A stretch of 47,834 bases of DNA from a virus. The stretch covers positions 1 to 47,834 of IMG/VR virus record IMGVR_UViG_3300048930_000091. One strand, 5' to 3'. The position numbers and the translations under genes are program-made. Below are positions 7,263 to 45,621 of the stretch, piece after piece (position 1 is the first letter of the stretch; each line of letters begins with the position of its first letter). Below the pieces are notes generated by a model that saw only the letters and a list, made by a program, of their open reading frames with translations, had not been told where the DNA came from and did not search any database.

Positions 7263-8639
7263 ATGCCAGACATCAACATTCTACACATTGACCATACTTA
7301 TATCAAGATTACTAGCGACGATCCGGGTAAACTGATGCAGCTTAGTGAGACTTTAACTTTTAGTATACCAAATGCTAAGTTCCATCCTAAAGTCAGAGCT
7401 AGAATATGGGACGGTAAAATTCGTCTTTTTAATTTGAAAACTAGGTCTGTGTATAAGGGCTTACTTAAAAACATTCTAAGATTTTCTGCCGACAATAATT
7501 ATAGTGTTGGCATTGATGAAGCCTTGTCTAAAGATATACTACCAGAAACTTCTATCGAAGATACTACCAAATACTTCAATTCTTTGAATCCGCAGTACAA
7601 AGGCGAACATCTTAAGCCATATGACCATCAGATTGTTGCTCTAAATCATGCAATGAACAATAAGAGAGCATTGATGCTTTCACCAACAGCAAGTGGTAAG
7701 AGTCTTGTTATATACGGCTTAATGAGATGGTTGCAGAAAGAAAACTGCAAGAAAATAATGTTGGTTGTGCCAAGTGTCAGTCTTGTTTATCAGATGGAAA
7801 ATGATCTAAGTGAATACTCAAAGAATGATAGTTCGTGGGACGCTGAAGAAAATATACACAAGATATTTGAGGGCCAGTGTAAAACTACAGATAAGCCAAT
7901 TGTAATTAATACGTGGCAAAGTGTGTATAACCAGCCCAAAGAATTCTTTGAAGAATATGACGCCGTTATTGTAGACGAAGCCCACCAGTTAAAAGCTGAA
8001 TCTATCAAGGGAATATTAGAAAAGTGCTCGAATTCCGCGTTTAGATATGGTTTAACAGGTACATTAGATGGTATCAAGACTAATAAGATGATCATTGAGG
8101 GTCTAACTGGACCTGTATTCAAAGTAACTTCTACCAGAGAGTTGATGGACAAGAAGTTAATATCGGATTTTAGTATCCGATGCATAGTCTTGGATTATTC
8201 AAAAGAATCTCGCAAATTCTGTAAAGACTTTAAGTACCATGAAGAATTGGAATACCTTGTCGGCCATAAGAAGCGCAATTCGTTTATAGCAGGTCTTGCG
8301 ATGTGTTTAAAGGGTAACACATTAATATTATATCAGTATGTTGAAAAGCACGGTGAAATACTATTTGAACTGATATCTAAGAAATGCGAAGGCACTAATC
8401 GTAAGGTATTCTTCATCAGCGGTGATGTAGAAGCTGAGGTTAGAGAAGAGATTCGCAATATTGTAGAAGCAGAAAAATTAAGAACTATAATATACTTAAA
8501 ATTTGGTGATAAAGAGATATCTTGCGATTCTGATGAAAATGTAATTTTATCTAATAGCAAAATTAAAAAAGCAATTGATATAACTATTAATGACGATGTT
8601 GATGATAATTGGATCAAAAATAAACTAAATAAACTCTAG
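7263..8639 (+). CDS. uvsW: UvsW-like helicase, N-terminal part, interrupted
   Basis: Residues 1-405 match a T4 UvsW-type superfamily 2 helicase: an N-terminal DNA-binding domain (KVRARIWDGKIRLFN), SPTASGKS near 140-147 (Walker A), DEAH near 238-241, and GLTGTLDG. UvsW unwinds and regresses branched recombination and replication DNA. After codon 8475-8477 the family sequence stops and 53 unrelated residues follow to a TAG. Their KFGDKEISCDSDENVILSN... pattern resembles the block B region of inteins. The helicase resumes at about 9421, beyond a GIY-YIG gene. The N-part alone lacks motifs V and VI and should not be an active helicase. Confidence 0.88.
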   Translation: MPDINILHIDHTYIKITSDDPGKLMQLSETLTFSIPNAKFHPKVRARIWDGKIRLFNLKTRSVYKGLLKNILRFSADNNYSVGIDEALSKDILPETSIEDTTKYFNSLNPQYKGEHLKPYDHQIVALNHAMNNKRALMLSPTASGKSLVIYGLMRWLQKENCKKIMLVVPSVSLVYQMENDLSEYSKNDSSWDAEENIHKIFEGQCKTTDKPIVINTWQSVYNQPKEFFEEYDAVIVDEAHQLKAESIKGILEKCSNSAFRYGLTGTLDGIKTNKMIIEGLTGPVFKVTSTRELMDKKLISDFSIRCIVLDYSKESRKFCKDFKYHEELEYLVGHKKRNSFIAGLAMCLKGNTLILYQYVEKHGEILFELISKKCEGTNRKVFFISGDVEAEVREEIRNIVEAEKLRTIIYLKFGDKEISCDSDENVILSNSKIKKAIDITINDDVDDNWIKNKLNKL

Positions 8640-8655
8640 AAAAGAGGGTCTATTT

Positions 8656-9381
8656 ATGTATTATTTGGTGTATAAAATTACAAATTTGATTAATGGTAAA
8701 TACTATATCGGAAAACATTGTACAGATAAATTAGATGATTCTTACATGGGTTCTGGCAAATTAATAAAAGACGCTATTAAAAAATATGGAAAAATAAACT
8801 TTAAAAAAGAAATATTGGTTAGTTGTGACAATGAATTTGATATGAATGTTATAGAGTCGTGCTTAATAAATCCATTCCCAAATAATAAACTGTCATATAA
8901 CTTAACAGAAGGTGGTAATGGTAGTTTTAAGTACATAAATCAAAATGGATTATCTCGCACAGAAGAATGCAAAATTAAGGTAAAGACTAGCCTCAAAAAT
9001 TATTGGAATAAGCCTGAATCTAGAGAAAAGAAAAGTAAAGAGAAAAAAGACTATTTTGCAATGTACGGATCTGCACATATTTCTGTTGGGCTCAAAAAAA
9101 GATATGAAAATAAAGATTTCCGTGAAAAATTTAAAACAAAAATGTCAGAAGTTAATTCTCGTTTAGATAAAAGACTTGATGCCGGTGCAAAAATTAAAGA
9201 TAAGTGGAAAAATGATCCCGTCTTTAGAGATAAAATGCGAAATCGCAAAAAAAGAGGACCCGATAACGGCAAAATAAAAGAATACTGGAAAAATCCAGAT
9301 TTTAGGAATAAAATGTTGTCTGCAAGAAAAGAAAAAAGAGAAAAGAAATTGCAAGCAAAAAATAATTCTAAAATAGACTAA
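8656..9381 (+). CDS. GIY-YIG homing endonuclease inserted in uvsW
   Basis: The 241-residue product begins MYYLVYKITNLINGKYYIGKH, the GIY-YIG motif (VYK...YYIGKH) with the following DSYMGSGKLIKDAIKKYG, and keeps the catalytic-type Glu in ESCLI. The C-terminal half is highly basic with repeats around YWKNPDFRNKM / KNDPVFRDKM, which look like DNA-contacting modules. Homing enzymes of this class cut an allele lacking the insertion and are copied in by repair. It lies inside uvsW, with its own GAGG ribosome binding site eight bases from the ATG. The repeats and position suggest a selfish element rather than a phage function. Confidence 0.87.
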   Translation: MYYLVYKITNLINGKYYIGKHCTDKLDDSYMGSGKLIKDAIKKYGKINFKKEILVSCDNEFDMNVIESCLINPFPNNKLSYNLTEGGNGSFKYINQNGLSRTEECKIKVKTSLKNYWNKPESREKKSKEKKDYFAMYGSAHISVGLKKRYENKDFREKFKTKMSEVNSRLDKRLDAGAKIKDKWKNDPVFRDKMRNRKKRGPDNGKIKEYWKNPDFRNKMLSARKEKREKKLQAKNNSKID

Positions 9382-9393
9382 GAAAGATTTTAT

Positions 9394-9733
9394 ATGAAAC
9401 CAACGTCAATTAGAAAGAAAGAAGGTGTAGGGTGCATTATTATTGCATCTTACGGTACGTTTTTCAACAGGAATTTCCTTAAGGCGATTGCATGGTATTA
9501 TATTTGCGTCGCCAAGCAAGAGCCGAGTACGAGTATTGCAAAGTATTGGTCGTCAATTAAGACTAGCAAAAAATAAAGGATCTGCTGTTTTATATGACAT
9601 ATCTGATAATTTAAAGCATAAGAGCAAAGCAAATTATACGTTAAACCATTTTCTTGAGCGGCTCAAGATATACGATCAAGAGAAGTTTGATTACACTATA
9701 AATAACATAGATCTTGAACCAGGAGAAAAGTAA
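9394..9733 (+). CDS. uvsW: UvsW-like helicase, C-terminal part, frameshifted
   Basis: The ATG at 9394 opens with EGVGCIIIASYGTF, which is helicase motif V and continues the UvsW N-part. After TTTTT at 9460-9464 the frame is lost, and the family sequence continues one frame over as STGISLRRLHGIIFASPSKS and VLQSIGRQLR (motif VI), ending at 9733. Removing one T restores a single frame. As written, the first frame stops after 60 residues and the rest could only start at an internal ATG (9443). Possible causes are a sequencing error in the T run, a +1 ribosomal slip on UUU, or a real lesion. Confidence 0.8.
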
Positions 9734-10180
9734 ATGGAACTTAAAAATATTTGTTTATTTAAGTTGGTCAGTGGAGAAGTCCTGGTTTCAGAATACAGGC
9801 TAGTTAAAAGTAATTACGCATTAATTAGACCAATGAGTATACAGACGTTAGATGTATATAACAAGAATATGGAAATAAGAGGCACTCAAGTTTCTGTGAA
9901 GCCATGGATAGATCATAGCCCAAATGACTTTTTTATGCTTTCGAAAAAACTCGTTCTTGTTAAATGCCAGCCGTATCCAGAGATTCTGAAAACATACGAA
10001 GAAATTAGAAATCAAGAAGATATATTAGATGCTGGTGATGAATTAGATGAGATAGCAGATCAATACTTGAATTCTCTTGCAGGAGTTACTTCCAGCAATA
10101 AGAAGATAGATCCAGACGATGAGTATGATGTATTTGATGACCTAGAAGACGGCCCCCAAAACCCTAGAATAACCTTTTGA
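9734..10180 (+). CDS. hypothetical protein with Sm-like N-terminal fold (148 aa)
   Basis: The first 85 residues have the strand pattern of an Sm/LSm-like barrel (ICLFKLVSGEVLVSEYRL, then KNMEIRGTQVSVKPW and KLVLVKC). The rest is acidic (DDEYDVFDDLEDG). A similar pattern occurs in the minus-strand gene at 33967. This is pattern resemblance only. AGGAG lies nine bases before the ATG, inside the end of uvsW. The gene sits between uvsW and the late sigma factor, so involvement in RNA or transcription is conceivable but not shown. Confidence 0.55.
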   Translation: MELKNICLFKLVSGEVLVSEYRLVKSNYALIRPMSIQTLDVYNKNMEIRGTQVSVKPWIDHSPNDFFMLSKKLVLVKCQPYPEILKTYEEIRNQEDILDAGDELDEIADQYLNSLAGVTSSNKKIDPDDEYDVFDDLEDGPQNPRITF

Positions 10181-14197: not shown

Positions 14198-15760
14198 ATG
14201 AAGCCCTACTATGAGAAAAACAGAATACTAGATGACTATACAGTTAATGTAACATTTCACGAAATTCTTAATATGACGCCTGCCGAGTTTAATTTGTGGG
14301 TGCTTCATATGAGATCATCTTTGTTGTCTTCCTGGGATCAGACTGGAAGCCCAGCTAGATTGGGCAAGAACCTAGAGGGTATTATTGAAGATTTTAACGA
14401 CACCAATGCTGCCGATACGTCTGAGTTTCTGAAAATAGATGAATTAACAAACGAAAAGTGTGTTGTGCAAAATACTCAATATTGTGGGTCTACAGTAGAT
14501 CAATTCTTTACTAACATGATGAAAGTGCCGATGTGTTATGGTAAAGATAAAGTGGGTTATAGTGTTTATGACTTACTAAGTAAAGACGAGCATAAGAATA
14601 GAGTTTTAAAGAGATCTCATAGGCACTTTAGAAAAGATAGCTTTTATCATTATAGTATGTGTGGTAAAATTAATGATAAGAAATCTTGCATGATATCTGT
14701 AAAGACAGCCGATGAATGGCTTAATGCATATTTCGACGGCAAGTTGCATGAAGATTGTGAATTTTGGCTGCATGAAGTCGAAGTAAAGACTGGTAAGAGT
14801 ACTGGCTATAAGCAGTTTGTACAAGATGACTTTTTGAAGTTAAGTTCTACAGAAGTATTGGCTTTATTGCCAAAGTTGAAGGCTAACCATATAGCTAACA
14901 TAGATGTTAATAATCTGAAAGATGATTGTTATTATATGATTAGAATATACGACAAAACATCTAGAATGTTTCCTAAAGCATTTACAGCATTTAGAATTGG
15001 GTATCTTAGTGTACCAGTTAATTTCCCACCATTGACTGCAAAGTTTCTTTACGAAAAGTATACTTCTAATGTACCACAAGATAAAACTGCAATAGTGTAT
15101 GATCCTTCTAGCGGCTGGGGTGGTCGAATCTTGGGCGCAATGAGCGCAAATAGACCGATACATTATATTGGCACAGACCCTAATCCAGACAATGTGTTTG
15201 TTGACGGTAAAACTAAGTATGAGCATATTGCAGAATTCTATAACAACAACGTAAATTCTAGTTTGTTCTTCGACGGCAATACATATGATATATTCACTGA
15301 CGGCAGCGAAGAAATATACAAGAATCCTAGATTTCATCAATATAAGGGCAAAATAGATCTTATCTTTACTTCACCACCATATTTCAATCGTGAATTGTAT
15401 AGTATGGACCCAAATCAAAGTGCTGTTAAATATGGCTCAAGTTACGAGTCATGGCGCGATGGTTTCTTGAAACCAACACTAAATACTTGTTATGAGTATC
15501 TGAAACCTGGTGGATATTTGTTGTGGAATATAGCAGATGTTCTTACAGAAGGTGAGTATTTGCCACTAGAACAAGATAGTATAGATTGCCTATTATCTTT
15601 GGGTATGAAGCAAGAAATAGTATTGAAGATGAAATTAATGGGAATGCCTGGAGCCCAAAGATTGGATGAAAACGGTATACCTAAGTGTAAGAATTATTGC
15701 AAAATTAGTGGAGTTTATCATAAATACGAGCCAATATATGTATTTCGAAAACCAATTTAA
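14198..15760 (+). CDS. DNA methyltransferase (TSPPY type)
   Basis: The 520-residue product carries DPSSGWGGR near 302-310 (SAM-binding loop), GTDPNP, and FTSPPYF near 389-395, the catalytic motif of amino-methyltransferases acting on adenine N6 or cytosine N4. The N-terminal 300 residues are unlike common methyltransferases and may hold target recognition. A phage enzyme of this kind may protect against restriction. Its last 38 residues (from MPGAQRL) are found again, 32 of 38 identical, at 16761-16877, beyond the minus-strand GIY-YIG gene. So this 3' end appears to have been replaced. The stop overlaps the convergent endonuclease stop by four bases. Confidence 0.85.
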   Translation: MKPYYEKNRILDDYTVNVTFHEILNMTPAEFNLWVLHMRSSLLSSWDQTGSPARLGKNLEGIIEDFNDTNAADTSEFLKIDELTNEKCVVQNTQYCGSTVDQFFTNMMKVPMCYGKDKVGYSVYDLLSKDEHKNRVLKRSHRHFRKDSFYHYSMCGKINDKKSCMISVKTADEWLNAYFDGKLHEDCEFWLHEVEVKTGKSTGYKQFVQDDFLKLSSTEVLALLPKLKANHIANIDVNNLKDDCYYMIRIYDKTSRMFPKAFTAFRIGYLSVPVNFPPLTAKFLYEKYTSNVPQDKTAIVYDPSSGWGGRILGAMSANRPIHYIGTDPNPDNVFVDGKTKYEHIAEFYNNNVNSSLFFDGNTYDIFTDGSEEIYKNPRFHQYKGKIDLIFTSPPYFNRELYSMDPNQSAVKYGSSYESWRDGFLKPTLNTCYEYLKPGGYLLWNIADVLTEGEYLPLEQDSIDCLLSLGMKQEIVLKMKLMGMPGAQRLDENGIPKCKNYCKISGVYHKYEPIYVFRKPI

Positions 15761-16599
15761 ACCGGCAATTTCCACCCTTGATGTGTTTTGTATTTGCCAT
15801 TAAGCACATATCGTATACATGTCCTATTAAGACCATGAATTCTACAAAATTCGGATAATCCTGTATACTCTATAATTTCATTATTTGGAGACAACAATTT
15901 AAAGGTGGATTTCATTCCATTAGAGTCGGTATCTTTAATTTCTCTGTTTATTATAAATTCTGGTCCGGGCAATGTCCATCCTTTGTGACTTTTTTGTTTT
16001 CCTCGAAGTACTTCGCGCAGCGCACCTCTGGATAAATTATGAAGTTTGCAAAATTGTGTTAGATTTGCGGCATGTATTATTTCTTTTGATGGTGACATTA
16101 TAGTGAAAGAAGTTTTATTTGGTACTACTTTTCTTTTGTTTTCTCTTTCTTCTTCCGATACTCGTCTACCTCTTAATTTGTTTGCCGCCGCATTTCTTAT
16201 TTCTATTCCTCTTTTGGTTTTATTGAATTCTTGCCCCTTCAAAGAAAGTAATTTTTTCGTTTCTTCTGTTGTTACACTGTTAACTCGTCCTTCGCCACCA
16301 AATGTCATATTATATCCTTTACCATTTAGATAGAAGGAATCATATTTTATTATGTATTTATTTTCTAAAATGAACATATTTTCTATGGAATCTGTTTTTT
16401 CTATGATTTCAATATTGAAATTATCTTTGCCATATTTCGATATAGCTATATGTAGAATCGATTTTCTTCCCGACCAATTAGATCCGCTTATATGTTCTAT
16501 AAATCTGCTGCGAATGTCGGGTCTCGAAGTAACACCTATATAAATTTTACCATTTATCAAGTTGGTAATTTTATAAATAATATATTCTTTGCTTTCCAT
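15757..16599 (-). CDS. GIY-YIG homing endonuclease with repeated NUMOD/IENR-type DNA-binding modules
   Basis: The 280-residue product starts MESKEYIIYKITNLINGKIYIGVTS (GIY-YIG), keeps the Glu in ILENKYI, and has two similar modules near residues 155-215 and 225-280. The modules are FTIMSPSKEII...LTQFCKLHNLSRGALREVLRGK...HKGW and FKLLSPNNEII...LSEFCRIHGLNRTCIRYVLNGK...HQGW. These are the helix-turn-helix modules typical of homing enzymes. It runs against its neighbours and lies between two copies of the methyltransferase 3' end. AAGGA lies nine bases before its ATG, and a late-type promoter box is at 16690-16697. Confidence 0.9.
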   Translation of the reverse strand: MESKEYIIYKITNLINGKIYIGVTSRPDIRSRFIEHISGSNWSGRKSILHIAISKYGKDNFNIEIIEKTDSIENMFILENKYIIKYDSFYLNGKGYNMTFGGEGRVNSVTTEETKKLLSLKGQEFNKTKRGIEIRNAAANKLRGRRVSEEERENKRKVVPNKTSFTIMSPSKEIIHAANLTQFCKLHNLSRGALREVLRGKQKSHKGWTLPGPEFIINREIKDTDSNGMKSTFKLLSPNNEIIEYTGLSEFCRIHGLNRTCIRYVLNGKYKTHQGWKLPV

Positions 16600-24000: not shown

Positions 24001-25052
24001 AGTTAATATGCGTATCTGGGCCAAGTGGTGTTGGTAAAAGTACAATAAGTTTGATGCTCAAATGCTTATTGGAAAAGTCTTACATTTTCTGCGGTGATAA
24101 TTATCATAAGTATATAAGATCTAGTCCAATCTGGCAAACAAAAACACATTTTGACCCAGAATGCAACGATTTGGTGCCACTCGAAAAAGATTTGGGTGAG
24201 CTTATATCAACTGGTAGTTCATTTGTTCGACATTATAACCATGATACTGGTGTATTTGATGATTTGGATAGAGTGTCTATTGATTCAGATACAACTGTAA
24301 TATATGAGGGGTTGCATTCCTTCTATCTACAGAATATAATACCCGATTTGAAAATATATGTTGATACAGATGAAAATTTGGCAACTGAATGGAAAATTAG
24401 ACGAGACTGTGCTAAAAGAGGATATACAGAAGATCAAGTTAGAGATATCATTTCTAAGCGTAGACCAGATGAATTAAGGTATATAAAATCTGAAAGAAGT
24501 TCTGCTGATATTATAATTAAATTTGAACAATGTAGAGATTGTATTGATATTTCTTATATACCGTCTACTACTAGGGGCGAAGATGATAGTGTAAAAGAAT
24601 TAATGAGTAAATTAGTTCATCTTTATAGAAGTATGGCAGATTATATTAAGTATTCTCGCCGAGTTGCATCTAACGTAAATTTGGTGCAAAATTCTGGTGG
24701 TAATCTTTCATATAAAGTAACCGATGATTTGATGATTATAAAATCGTCTGGATCTTGTATGAATGATTGTAGTCTTTTTGATGGATACAGCATTTGTAAA
24801 ATAAGCCGCGGGTATTATAGAGAAGAACAAGAATATGATGATGAATTAGAATATGTTGCCAAATATTGTAAGCCATCTATGGAATATGGATTTCATGCTA
24901 ATTTAGAGTATCCTGTAGTTCTTCATGTTCACCCACTAAACTTATTGTCTATCTTATGTAGTAAAGAATCTAGAACGATATTCTTTGAGAATTTTAAGAA
25001 CAATTCTATTAACGGTCCATTGATAGAATATACTACCCCGGATACGAATTGA
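23997..25052 (+). CDS. P-loop kinase fused to the N-terminal part of a class II aldolase
   Basis: Residues 1-195 form a uridine kinase/phosphoribulokinase-like P-loop kinase (SGPSGVGKST, CGDNYH, VIYEGLH). Residues 200-351 form the first part of a class II aldolase/adducin domain: NSGGNLSYKV, IIKSSGSCM, and YPVVLHVHP, whose two His bind the metal. The domain is cut off after IEYTTPDT. Its remaining part is encoded at 25049 in another frame. Such a protein could phosphorylate and cleave or isomerise a sugar for nucleotide-sugar synthesis; the substrate is unknown. A T restored at 25049-25050 would give one 470-residue protein. Confidence 0.75.
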   Translation: MKLICVSGPSGVGKSTISLMLKCLLEKSYIFCGDNYHKYIRSSPIWQTKTHFDPECNDLVPLEKDLGELISTGSSFVRHYNHDTGVFDDLDRVSIDSDTTVIYEGLHSFYLQNIIPDLKIYVDTDENLATEWKIRRDCAKRGYTEDQVRDIISKRRPDELRYIKSERSSADIIIKFEQCRDCIDISYIPSTTRGEDDSVKELMSKLVHLYRSMADYIKYSRRVASNVNLVQNSGGNLSYKVTDDLMIIKSSGSCMNDCSLFDGYSICKISRGYYREEQEYDDELEYVAKYCKPSMEYGFHANLEYPVVLHVHPLNLLSILCSKESRTIFFENFKNNSINGPLIEYTTPDTN

Positions 25053-25408
25053 CGAACAGAATACTCGAAGAAAACAAAAATACTCCCATTTACTATTTGG
25101 AAAACCATGGTTTAATTGTATGTGGAAATACTTTTCAAGAAGCAATAGATATTGCATCTCATATTGAAAAATATAGCGCAGACATTCTTGATAAGATGTG
25201 TTTTAATAAGCCATTTATTAAAAATGCATCAACCACAGGAAAAATATATCCAGACCATGCTGTATTTCCAGAAAGAAATTCAGATTATGCAAATTATGTT
25301 CTTAAGAATATGATTAACTGTGGTTTGACGCCGATGTATTTGTCAGACGAAGAAATATCAAAATTATTACAAAAACCTTCTGAAATATATAGAAAGGCTA
25401 AATCATAA
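25049..25408 (+). CDS. class II aldolase, C-terminal part
   Basis: A TTG start overlaps the upstream TGA (TTGA). The 119-residue product has IYYLENHGLIVCGNTFQEAIDIASHIEKYS, the conserved ENHG segment and following helix that complete a class II aldolase. The two parts join naturally as IEYTTPDTN-LTNRILEENK, so this is one domain in two frames. Either the ribosome restarts at the overlap and two chains assemble, or one base is missing. The HG histidine would be the third metal ligand. Confidence 0.7.
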   Translation: MTNRILEENKNTPIYYLENHGLIVCGNTFQEAIDIASHIEKYSADILDKMCFNKPFIKNASTTGKIYPDHAVFPERNSDYANYVLKNMINCGLTPMYLSDEEISKLLQKPSEIYRKAKS

Positions 25409-35049: not shown

Positions 35050-35879
35050 TTATTCTAATAAATCTGATATTGTGTTTGTTGTAAGTCTAGGAATAACACA
35101 TTCGTCGATGTATTTCTTACTATATTCTATGCCTATATACTTTCTATTATTGTGTTTGGCGATTACTGGAGTTGTACCAGATCCACACATTGGATCAAGC
35201 ACGGTGTCGCCTTGATCAGAAAATAACAATATTAGATCTTGTGCCAGTTTGTCTGGAAACGTAGCAGGATGATTATTCTTGATTTCATTGTTTTCGTTAT
35301 TAGAAGTATAGCCGTTGTAGTTCCATATAGTACCACAGCACTTTGTATCGTCGCATACAAAGTAAGTTTTTTTGTCGAAAGATCCGTCTTTTTTCTCTTC
35401 TGTACACTCATCTTTTTGCCTGGGTGTAGGGTGGGAATTTTCATATGTTCTTTATTAAAATATCTGGGTGTATCACCCTTAACAAAGATGTGTATATATT
35501 CGTGATCTACTCTAAATCTTCTGTTCCAGTATTTACCGGGTATGCCATTTCTTTGATAGATGGTTGTCTCAAACAACGACCAGCCGCATTCTCTTATTAG
35601 GTCTGCGGCTAGCATCATGCTGGTACCAGTCTTTACTTTCTTAGTTTGATCTTGAATTACCACACACAATACACCACCATCACAAGTTGCTTGGTATAAC
35701 AACTTACCATAATTTATAATATCCATTTTAGGATATTCGTTATAGGTGCGCATACTGTCATATGGTGGGCTTGTGACAGTTAGGTGTACAGATCCAGGAT
35801 CAATATCTTTTAGCGCAGTATAACAGTCATCATTTATTATGATGCCATCATTATCCGAGTATGTAATATTTTTAATCAT
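35050..35879 (-). CDS. DNA methyltransferase, frameshifted
   Basis: The N-terminal part has VTSPPYDSMR (catalytic motif, residues 36-40) and continues normally to LHPGKK. At an A run on the minus strand (35413-35417) the frame slips. The next frame then gives TEEKKDGSFDKKTYFV, HPATFPDKLAQDLI, VLDPMCGSGTT (SAM loop) and YIGIEYSKKYIDECV, ending at 35050. Adding one A gives a single 276-residue enzyme of the adenine-N6/cytosine-N4 class with motif order IV to I. As written, the unshifted frame runs to 35232 with a nonsense tail. The site reads C-AAA-AAG, which could allow -1 slipping. Confidence 0.8.
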
Positions 35880-43020: not shown

Positions 43021-45621
43021 ATGAAAAATACTCTCAATCAAGATAGGCGTATGTCTTCTGGTGACATCGAAATTGAAAGTGGACTCGCCAGGCTATTGGC
43101 CGGCGAGAACCTTACAATTCAACACGATGTAAAGGCACAATCCGCTTCGTTCAATGTTGATACCAGAACATTGACAATGCCGGCATTTGCTCAAATTGAC
43201 GCCGACTTTTATGAAATGAACATATGCCATGAAGTTGGTCATGCTATGTTCACTCCTAAGAGTGACGTAATTGGTCAGACTATTGGCAGGATTGATGAAG
43301 ATCCAACAGTTGCAGATAAGGTTAAGTATGTTGTTAATACCGTAGAGGACGCCAGAGTTAATCGTCTGGTTAAGCGCAAGTACCCCGGTGTTGCCATCAC
43401 TTATCGTAATGCCGGTGATTACTTGATGAGCACTGGTATGTTTGGCGATCTCGCCGAAGTCAAAGTCGATGATTATGGCTTTCTTGATCGTATTAACCTG
43501 ATGTTTAGTATTGGTGTTGGTAATCCCGATGTTCATGTTGAATTTAAGGATGCAGAAATGCGCCTTGTTCAGCGCATGATGAATACAGAAAACTGGCAAG
43601 ATGTAGAGGCCCTGTCTAAGGATCTGTATCGGTATTGCAAGGATAATGACGAAGAGATCCCAGAAGAACAGGGCCAACAGGGTCGGGGCCAACAGGGTCA
43701 GGGCCAACGGGGTCAGGGCCAACAGGGTCAGGGCCAACAGGGTCAGGGCCAACAGGGTCAGGGCCAACAGGGTCAGGGCCAACGGGGTCAGGGCCAACAG
43801 GGTCAGGGCCAACAGGGTCAGGGCCAACAGGGTCAGGGCCAACAGGGTCAGGGCCAACAGGGTCAGGGCCAACGGGGTCAGGGCCAACAGGGTCAGGGCC
43901 AACAGGGTCAGGGCCAACAGGGTCAGGGCCAACAGGGTCAGGGCCAACAGGGTCAGGGCCAACAGGGTCAGGGCCAACAGGGTCAGGGCCAACAGGGTCA
44001 GGGCCAACAGGGTCAGGGCCCGGGCGAGAGCAATTCAAATTCTGGCAAACCAAGTATAAGGGGTGGGGGATCGAGTGGTCCTGCAACTGGCGGGGGTGTT
44101 GGAAGTGCTGGTCTTGGATCTGGCACTAAAGTCAGAGTTTCCAACTTCAAGAATGGTGTTCAGTCCAAGATTGATGAACACCTTGTAAAGCATAAGACTA
44201 CCAATTCTGACTTTGTGTATATCAACATCCCAGAAGTTGATAGCTCGAAGTATATTATTCCATCCAATAAATTGTGGGAAGCAATCGATAAGCAGATAGC
44301 TGCCAAATATCAAGTGTTGCCAACAGACGTTTCACCCAGAGAAATCTATAACAGATATGCCGCAAAGTCGCGTAAGATCATCAGTGGTCTTGTTACTGAA
44401 TTTAATGTTCGTAAATCTGCCGACGAGTCTCAGCGTACTTCTACCGCAGAAACCGGCCGAATCAATCCCAATAAACTTCATCATTATAAGTATGACGACA
44501 ATATCTTCCTGAGAGGTCAAGTTGTACGCGAAGGAAAGAATCACGGATTTGTGATGATTATTGATGGTAGTGGTTCTATGGATTCTATCATTGGATCTGT
44601 TGTAGAGAAAACCGTAGAACTTGCAACCTTCTGCCGTCAAGTCAATGTTCCCTTTGAAGTCATGATCTTCAATGATAATTCATATGCCTTTAACCTACTT
44701 ACAGCTACTCTTAAAGACAAAAATGTTGATATCAATAGTTCAAATGGCGGGTATCTTGATGGTAAGCCAAAGGATGGCGATGCTAATTTGAGTAATTGCA
44801 TTATGTTAAATGTTTTGAGTAGTAAGATGAGCGCGGCTCAATTTACTGCTGCTTGTGGTAAACTTCTTTGTTGGTCTAAGGCTGCAAGAAATTATGTTAC
44901 TGGCAACGAAACATTTTGTAGTTATGATGCCAGTTACATGAAGTTGAATGGCACACCACTAAACGAATCTATTCTTGTTGCCACTGACTATCTTCCTAAG
45001 TTCCAAAAAGATCACAAGGTTCAAATTGTAAACCTTATTGTGCTTACTGATGGTGAAGGTAACGAGAACATGACCAGTTACCGATATGATTCTAAGAAGG
45101 GTAGTTATGATTATTATTATCGCTCTAGTGGTAACTTGATCGCAAGAGATAATAAGTGTAAGATTTCTGCCAATTTGGCCACCAGATATACCAATATCAA
45201 TTGCTCTGGATATGCTTCTAGAATGACCGCTTTCTTGATCGATCGGTTGAAGTATAGAACTGGTGCAAATGCTATTGGATACTATGTTGGCGATCGTAGT
45301 TTTATGAAGCACCGTTGTGATGACACCACCAAACTTCAAAAGTTGTATGATGATTATGATAAGAATGGATCTGCCATGATCTTAGAAAATGGCTATGATG
45401 CGTATTTTATCATGTCCTATAGTTCTTTGAATAAATCAATTGTTGACGAGACCGGCAATCTGCAAAGTAATAAGAACCTGTCAGCCGAAGAAAAGTTGCG
45501 TCTTATCTCCAGTGAGGCTGCTGGTAATCGTGGATCTAGAGTGTTCCTCACACAATTCACCAATATTGTGAGTGGTAAAGCAAAGTTAGATAAACCAAAG
45601 ACTAAGAAAGTAACGGAATAA
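43021..45621 (+). CDS. CobT-like metallopeptidase-VWA protein with Gly-Gln repeat (module 2)
   Basis: The 866-residue product has three parts. The N-terminal domain has NICHEVGHAMF (HEXXH, H70-H74) and NTVEDARVNRLVKRKYPG. A low-complexity stretch of 23 GQQGQ units follows (residues 218-332). The C-terminal VWA domain has VMIIDGSGSMDS (MIDAS, about 511-522) and VLTDGEG. This build is that of the phage CobT-like proteins, partners of CobS-like MoxR ATPases. True cobaltochelatase activity is unlikely, since no CobN is seen. It has no ribosome binding site and a promoter directly at its start. Confidence 0.83.
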   Translation: MKNTLNQDRRMSSGDIEIESGLARLLAGENLTIQHDVKAQSASFNVDTRTLTMPAFAQIDADFYEMNICHEVGHAMFTPKSDVIGQTIGRIDEDPTVADKVKYVVNTVEDARVNRLVKRKYPGVAITYRNAGDYLMSTGMFGDLAEVKVDDYGFLDRINLMFSIGVGNPDVHVEFKDAEMRLVQRMMNTENWQDVEALSKDLYRYCKDNDEEIPEEQGQQGRGQQGQGQRGQGQQGQGQQGQGQQGQGQQGQGQRGQGQQGQGQQGQGQQGQGQQGQGQQGQGQRGQGQQGQGQQGQGQQGQGQQGQGQQGQGQQGQGQQGQGQQGQGQQGQGPGESNSNSGKPSIRGGGSSGPATGGGVGSAGLGSGTKVRVSNFKNGVQSKIDEHLVKHKTTNSDFVYINIPEVDSSKYIIPSNKLWEAIDKQIAAKYQVLPTDVSPREIYNRYAAKSRKIISGLVTEFNVRKSADESQRTSTAETGRINPNKLHHYKYDDNIFLRGQVVREGKNHGFVMIIDGSGSMDSIIGSVVEKTVELATFCRQVNVPFEVMIFNDNSYAFNLLTATLKDKNVDINSSNGGYLDGKPKDGDANLSNCIMLNVLSSKMSAAQFTAACGKLLCWSKAARNYVTGNETFCSYDASYMKLNGTPLNESILVATDYLPKFQKDHKVQIVNLIVLTDGEGNENMTSYRYDSKKGSYDYYYRSSGNLIARDNKCKISANLATRYTNINCSGYASRMTAFLIDRLKYRTGANAIGYYVGDRSFMKHRCDDTTKLQKLYDDYDKNGSAMILENGYDAYFIMSYSSLNKSIVDETGNLQSNKNLSAEEKLRLISSEAAGNRGSRVFLTQFTNIVSGKAKLDKPKTKKVTE
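43672..44016 (+). repeat. 23 tandem copies of a 15-bp unit (Gly-Gln repeat)
   Basis: The unit GGCCAACAGGGTCAG repeats 23 times without length change and encodes GQQGQ. Variants are GQQGR in unit 1 and GQRGQ in units 3, 8 and 14. The unit has no stop in any of the six frames, so all frames read open here; only the coding one fits the flanking domains. It lies between the metallopeptidase-like and VWA domains and is probably a flexible linker. Confidence 0.95.

Follow-up and report, generated by a model that had tools for sequence, protein, structure and literature searches.

The window analysed here, an IMG/VR virus record of 47,834 nucleotides (47.8 kb), showed a T4-like gene order around uvsW. 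The uvsW gene spanned positions 7263-9733 and was interrupted at 8656-9381 by the gene of a Seg-type GIY-YIG homing endonuclease. The following features were assigned:

7263..8477, + strand: UvsW N-part with the UvsW_N and DEAD/ResIII helicase domains (Pfam UvsW_N, ResIII), ending in ...REEIRNIVEAEK.
8478..8639, + strand: N-part tail, 53 residues in frame plus a stop codon, predicted with AlphaFold2 to be a Hint (block B)-like mini-domain without catalytic residues; homologues in contigs L151-L153, L287, L288 and L289 and in Vibrio and Dickeya phages.
8656..9381, + strand: free-standing Seg-type GIY-YIG homing endonuclease of 241 amino acids, assigned by domain and family matches.
9394..9432, + strand: C-part leader MKPTSIRKKEGVG, the MKPT/MKPS-type start of which was kept in all split relatives.
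9417..9465, + strand: predicted RNA hairpin with the 5' arm GAAAGAAGGTGTAGGGTGC, the loop ATTATTATT and a 3' arm consisting of the motif V codons including the T run.
9460..9464, + strand: TTTTT, with an extra T compared with intact uvsW; proposed +1 frameshift site ACG_TTT_T.
9464..9733, + strand: UvsW C-part in the second frame, STGIS...GEK, with helicase motif VI and the stop codon.

Uninterrupted homologues of uvsW exist, and the insertion breaks one conserved open reading frame (ORF) into two. Intact relatives read straight through ...EKNAIIVASYGTFSTGIN..., and in the window the similarity ran up to residue 405 (position 8477) and resumed at about 9433 (CIIIASYGTF). Such a split had been predicted earlier from the window sequence, together with a 53-codon in-frame extension and a free-standing GIY-YIG gene with its own ribosome binding site, and all three were borne out, the extension occupying positions 8478-8636. 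The N-part was 44% identical to UvsW of phage HTVC008M, and the C-part was 59% identical to residues 402-486 of the same protein; it was conserved, with a length of 84-89 amino acids, in eight lineages. The GC content was 22% in the tail, 28% in the endonuclease gene and 36% in uvsW, the insert being AT-rich. Based on the sequence alignments, a cassette is placed just before helicase motif V of uvsW.

The ORF at 8656-9381 matched PHROG 314 (GIY-YIG homing endonuclease) with an E-value of 3.5e-34, and the Pfam SegE_GIY-YIG match reached 22.2 bits, under the 25-bit cut-off. A Seg/GIY-YIG endonuclease was predicted from the conserved Tyr and Glu residues, the separate ORF with its ribosome binding site and the similarity to phage Seg genes. 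In contigs L151-L153 an endonuclease 49% identical to that of the window occupied the identical uvsW site. A second free-standing GIY-YIG endonuclease gene was present in the window at 15757-16599 (- strand), its product being 23% identical to the one within uvsW. Another endonuclease-like ORF (234 amino acids) was located just upstream of the split uvsW in L286 (381-1085, reverse complement) and in L296, both of which were near-copies of L151.

L151-L153 were found by the search with the endonuclease family rather than by the search for the extra T, and they showed the same gene order, tail, leader and frame change. They were 98% identical to each other, and their UvsW was about 42% identical to that of the window. 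The order of N-part, endonuclease and C-part, likened in the original prediction to that of fractured genes, was kept in the relatives. Contig L288 retained the tail, the leader, the extra T and the hairpin and had no endonuclease. When the tail of L289 was used as the query, 58 Vibrio and 19 Dickeya phages were matched. In Vibrio phages K471 and K475 the UvsW parts were adjacent ORFs with an ATGA overlap, a tail and the leader MKPTK, so that uvsW was split with neither an endonuclease nor a frame change. In Dickeya phage LIMEstone1 the parts flanked an endonuclease gene, which its authors name intron I-LimI and list as GIY-YIG in their table (PMC3296691). The I-LimI protein appeared HNH-like by eye. 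Neither the extra T nor such a hairpin was found in K471 and LIMEstone1, and the split by itself therefore does not depend on the frameshift. Since the Vibrio phages and L288 have no endonuclease, the tail and the leader are the lasting elements, and the endonuclease is variably present.

The N-part tree showed the split lineages scattered among the intact ones, with five changes, at least two of which were forced by well supported branches. The L287 group (L287 with L291, L293 and L295) adjoined the intact L085 and L225, the latter carrying a Seg-type gene just upstream of its uvsW; the T4 SegE likewise targets uvsW from outside (PMC2988022). A mobile cassette composed of the tail, the endonuclease, the leader and the extra T would fit this scattered distribution. 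A differently broken UvsW was noticed in L005 (Synechococcus phage ACG-2014d, 3001-4556), where UvsW is annotated as two ORFs, both containing about 45 residues of similarity, and the break was located upstream of that of the window.

The tail frame (8478-8636) was open by chance in just 0.07% of dinucleotide shuffles, the other two frames contained 6 and 15 stops, and its stop codon was located at 8637-8639. The tail was conserved in four metagenomic lineages besides the window and in the cultured Vibrio and Dickeya phages; the tails of L151-L153 and the window were 41% identical (E 2e-6). The AlphaFold2 model built from five tails was a confident small domain with a pLDDT of 92.9. Inteins or intein-like domains accounted for 12 of the 13 PDB chains with Z >= 2, aligned on the block-B half (Z 5.0-2.7), and many of the top viral fold matches were intein-containing proteins. 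These matches to Hint domains were modest (Foldseek E > 1, Z <= 5, hhalign probability <= 5%). In a search of the single tail with a block-B profile, 19% of random phage segments scored at least as well, a second profile gave 15/8991, and the profile-profile comparison was weak; these intein profile tests were weak or mixed, and some of their control intein sequences were approximate. For the proposed resemblance of the tail to intein block B, the fold comparison alone was suggestive, and the sequence library searches of the 53 residues assigned them to no Hint or intein family. Single-sequence search returned no close relatives of P0001, P0002 or the tail, and the genome contigs searched contained no useful relative. 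An AlphaFold2 model of the whole N-part, in which TIIYLKFG took the place of the motif V strand, was rejected as it was of low confidence and probably alignment-driven.

The residues required for splicing were missing. No block A residue (Cys/Ser/Ala at the N-extein junction) was present in the window, where the tail starts right after EAEK, or in the relatives. The catalytic His of block B was replaced by Glu in the window and L151, and no tail had His at this position. The C-terminal His-Asn and the +1 Cys/Ser/Thr were absent from the C-part, the leaders reading MKPT...GC(III)ASYGTF. The lack of block A and His-Asn, already pointed out in the original prediction, was thus common to all relatives. 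Because block A, the block-B His and the C-terminal His-Asn are all missing, the tail cannot splice. Joining of the halves by active protein trans-splicing of a split intein, suggested by a gene order and a predicted tail fold like those of fractured genes (for instance, gp41 of Shigella phage ESh36), is consequently very improbable, as the block A nucleophile, the block-B His, a C-intein and the His-Asn before the C-extein were absent in every relative. The modeled fold suggests that the tail is likely a Hint-derived docking tag.

The second model raised earlier, a group I intron that carries the endonuclease and is removed from the mRNA, did not hold up and is given equally little credence. 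The authors of LIMEstone1 call the equivalent gene an intron (PMC3296691). However, no Rfam group I match was obtained in 8000-9800 at E-values up to 10, when the T4 td control was found with an E-value of 2.3e-8 at identical settings; moreover, conservation of the tail is at the protein level, translation of the C-part has a start codon of its own, and a single splice would be unable to mend the frame at the T run.

The ORF of the C-part started at ATG 9394 (MKPTSIRKKEGVGCIIIASYGTF), switched frame once at the T run and then remained open to 9733. The frame of 9394 was followed through ...CIIIASYGTF and continued in the frame of 9464 (STGIS...). If one U is skipped at UUU_U, the exact protein sequence of intact UvsW is obtained. 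Of the original prediction, the intein-like tail on a fractured gene was the better supported half; this +1 frame change (9460-9464) had been missed. The window contig alone is not trustworthy for the extra T because two other likely homopolymer indels were present in it. That the frame change stems from a sequencing error was considered and rejected, as the same shift occurred in independent contigs. A search for the extra T in motif V yielded 13 contigs from seven lineages besides the window, namely L284-L286 (the same as L151-L153), the near-copy L296, the L287 group, L288, L289, L290, L292 and L294; many of these were near-copies of one another. All had a split C-part and an MKPT-type leader, and the tail was present in every one reaching far enough upstream, which made eight lineages with the C-part and five with the tail, the window included. 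Of 141 distinct uvsW sites lacking the extra T, many of which had been fetched by a pattern requiring AAGGAG upstream, 138 were intact, three were contig edges and none was split. It was concluded from the 13 split contigs against 0 of 138 intact genes that the extra T is linked to the split and is not an assembly error. No second UvsW copy was detected on the five sister contigs searched.

The leader in frame 1 had an in-frame start in all eight lineages despite length differences, and it contained no stops. Its pairwise amino acid identity was 67% compared to 46-49% in the other frames, which contained 10 and 5 stops. The differences occurred mostly at third codon positions, and the frame after the T run was likewise constrained. 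Hence two overlapping frames and a slippery site were conserved, with purifying selection on both frames. Such conservation bears on the proposal of a decayed fractured gene, according to which the residues for splicing were lost from an old split intein and the C-part is a pseudogene on its way out, with the frame change as its inactivating lesion. A Hint-like tail without catalytic residues and the further homopolymer indels in the window contig would agree with it, but the tail, the leader, the extra T and both C-part frames were conserved across lineages whose UvsW proteins are about 42% identical, and the motifs and the stop position of the C-part were kept in eight lineages. We regard this proposal as improbable. 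As for the earlier wording "decayed or unusual form", conservation in five metagenomic lineages and cultured isolates speaks against simple decay.

It may also be asked whether the C-part starts directly in the second frame, for instance at TTG 9443, with no frameshift. This codon is preceded by a weak AGGGTG, and frame-2 starts are also available in L284, L288 and L289. In the L287 group and L292, however, a frame-2 stop occurred shortly before STGI, and no ATG, GTG, TTG, CTG or ATH was found in frame 2 between the last stop and STGI; the C-part containing motif V therefore requires a frameshift there. Over the last codons before the T run, three of the four changes between the window and L151 were synonymous in frame 1 and none in frame 2, and a product started in frame 2 would be without ASYG of motif V. 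A direct start is thus rather unlikely, though less so than decay. From the sequences we infer that +1 frameshifting takes place at the T run itself. In E. coli assays UUU_U was a much weaker +1 site than CUU_U (PMC5009743). The A-site codon at the shift site is UUC, neither a stop nor a rare codon.

The 3' section of the C-part leader doubles as the 5' arm of the predicted hairpin. In each of the eight lineages the leader formed base pairs with the codons of motif V as far as the T run, with energies of -17 to -20 kcal/mol, and the median for the same stretch in 23 intact genes was -9.8 kcal/mol. Shuffling of the leader only gave p values of 0.002-0.024 in each of the eight lineages, the single-sequence folding z-scores were -1.8 to -3.9, and 6 of 20000 random assignments of leaders to arms were as stable as the native ones, which indicated covariation; these statistics overstate independence because the lineages are related. 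AAGGAG(G) was present in the 5' arm of most leaders in a frame that differed between lineages, and therefore it is kept as a nucleotide sequence. No consistent signal of a stem-loop downstream of the shift site was obtained. The hairpin is proposed as a probable stimulator of the shift.

The extra T might instead be a cleavage-immunity mark that spoils the endonuclease target in motif V, with only a little C-part being made through leaky frameshifting. The distance between the extra T and the insertion point is about 30 nt, and the T was seen only with the cassette, which is scattered among intact lineages as a mobile co-converted tract would be; a precedent is T4 gene 60, whose bypassed insert of 50 nt may give protection from the endonuclease (PMC5009743). 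Nevertheless, L288 holds the T and the hairpin without an endonuclease, LIMEstone1 has an endonuclease and no extra T, and the covarying hairpin is left needing another reason. We consider this explanation somewhat unlikely, though a serious competitor.

It was proposed, with reasonable though not high confidence, that a mobile cassette leaves UvsW as two docking polypeptides, the smaller of which is produced by programmed +1 frameshifting. The comparisons behind this proposal are the split, the conservation of the tail, the association of the extra T with the split, the covariation of the hairpin and the missing frame-2 starts in two lineages. The homing-endonuclease cassette would split uvsW so that UvsW is made as two polypeptides, an N-part ending in a tail of about 50 residues, putatively a non-splicing Hint (intein) remnant, and a C-part that begins at a start codon of its own with a short basic leader. 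At UUU_U the P-site tRNA-Phe would re-pair from UUU to UUU, giving ...ASYGTF/STGIS... as in intact UvsW. The hairpin between the leader and the shift site would boost the shift, possibly through refolding once the ribosome has passed; alternatively, it may bring AAGGAGG of the 5' arm near the shift site, in the manner of prfB. Through the tail and the leader the two polypeptides would then dock and form the helicase. We infer the docking, the helicase activity and the stimulatory role of the hairpin from sequence data. A bolder version, considered less likely than not, is a cassette that carries its own repair kit for the gene it disrupts, with a domesticated, non-splicing intein fragment as a docking tag for the halves and a hairpin-guided +1 element, in which the cassette's leader pairs with the motif V codons of the host gene and places an internal AAGGAGG close to the slippery site; the extra T may also shield the host copy against cleavage.

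The closest parallel is T4 gene 39/60 with mobA, where a T4-like gene is likewise broken up by a homing endonuclease and gene 60, the C-terminal piece, needs recoding a few dozen codons from its start and beside an RNA structure (PMC5009743, PMC2988022). The uvsW case differs in having a GIY-YIG instead of an HNH enzyme, a one-base shift in place of a 50-nt hop, a helicase instead of a topoisomerase, and a Hint-like tail on the N-part. In nrdA/mobE of Aeromonas phage Aeh1 and in gene 43A/B with seg of phage 25, a free-standing endonuclease similarly splits an essential enzyme, which works as two polypeptides (PMC2988022); neither a conserved tail and leader pair nor a frameshift is described for them in that review. 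Fractured split-intein genes of the gp41-1 and NrdJ-1 type share the order of N-part, intein-like part, endonuclease and C-part, and the predicted fold of the uvsW tail resembles their block-B half, whereas the uvsW case has no splicing residues or C-intein and its endonuclease is of the GIY-YIG type. The split site, a homologous tail and the MKPT leader are shared with UvsW of LIMEstone1 (ORF122-124) and of Vibrio K471/K475, which, unlike the window, have neither the extra T nor the hairpin, the Vibrio phages also having no endonuclease. The T4 SegE is relevant as a Seg-family GIY-YIG endonuclease that targets uvsW, but segE is located beside uvsW and not within it (PMC2988022).

Among titles and abstracts, neither a link of uvsW to programmed frameshifting nor a description of the tail as intein-derived was found. 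The tail fold, the +1 shift and the hairpin appear to be new, and the split itself was already annotated, as an intron, in LIMEstone1. T4 gene 60 has so far been the outstanding phage case of an endonuclease-split gene dependent on recoding. If the proposal is true, uvsW would add another such case, independent of it and widespread, in which the event is much simpler (one base, +1), and would point to homing endonucleases as a recurrent driving force behind the emergence of recoding signals; a non-splicing intein fragment serving as an assembly tag would likewise be a new fate for inteins. Since relatives carrying the split gene are in culture, the two-part helicase is open to testing.

Other irregularities were noted in the window. 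At 25032-25054 a kinase/aldolase-like gene shifted frame at CCCC, so that ORFs of 351 and 119 amino acids apparently represented one protein; this was likely a one-base homopolymer sequencing error, or else a real break. A DNA methyltransferase ORF (35232-35879, - strand) was cut short by a break near 35381-35400, and its end (HPATFPDKLAQDLI...LDPMCGSGTT) continued in another frame near an A6 run. Finally, a long Gln-Gly repeat (GQGQQGQ...) was present at 43646-44059 within an 866-amino-acid ORF (43021-45621), where several frames were open.
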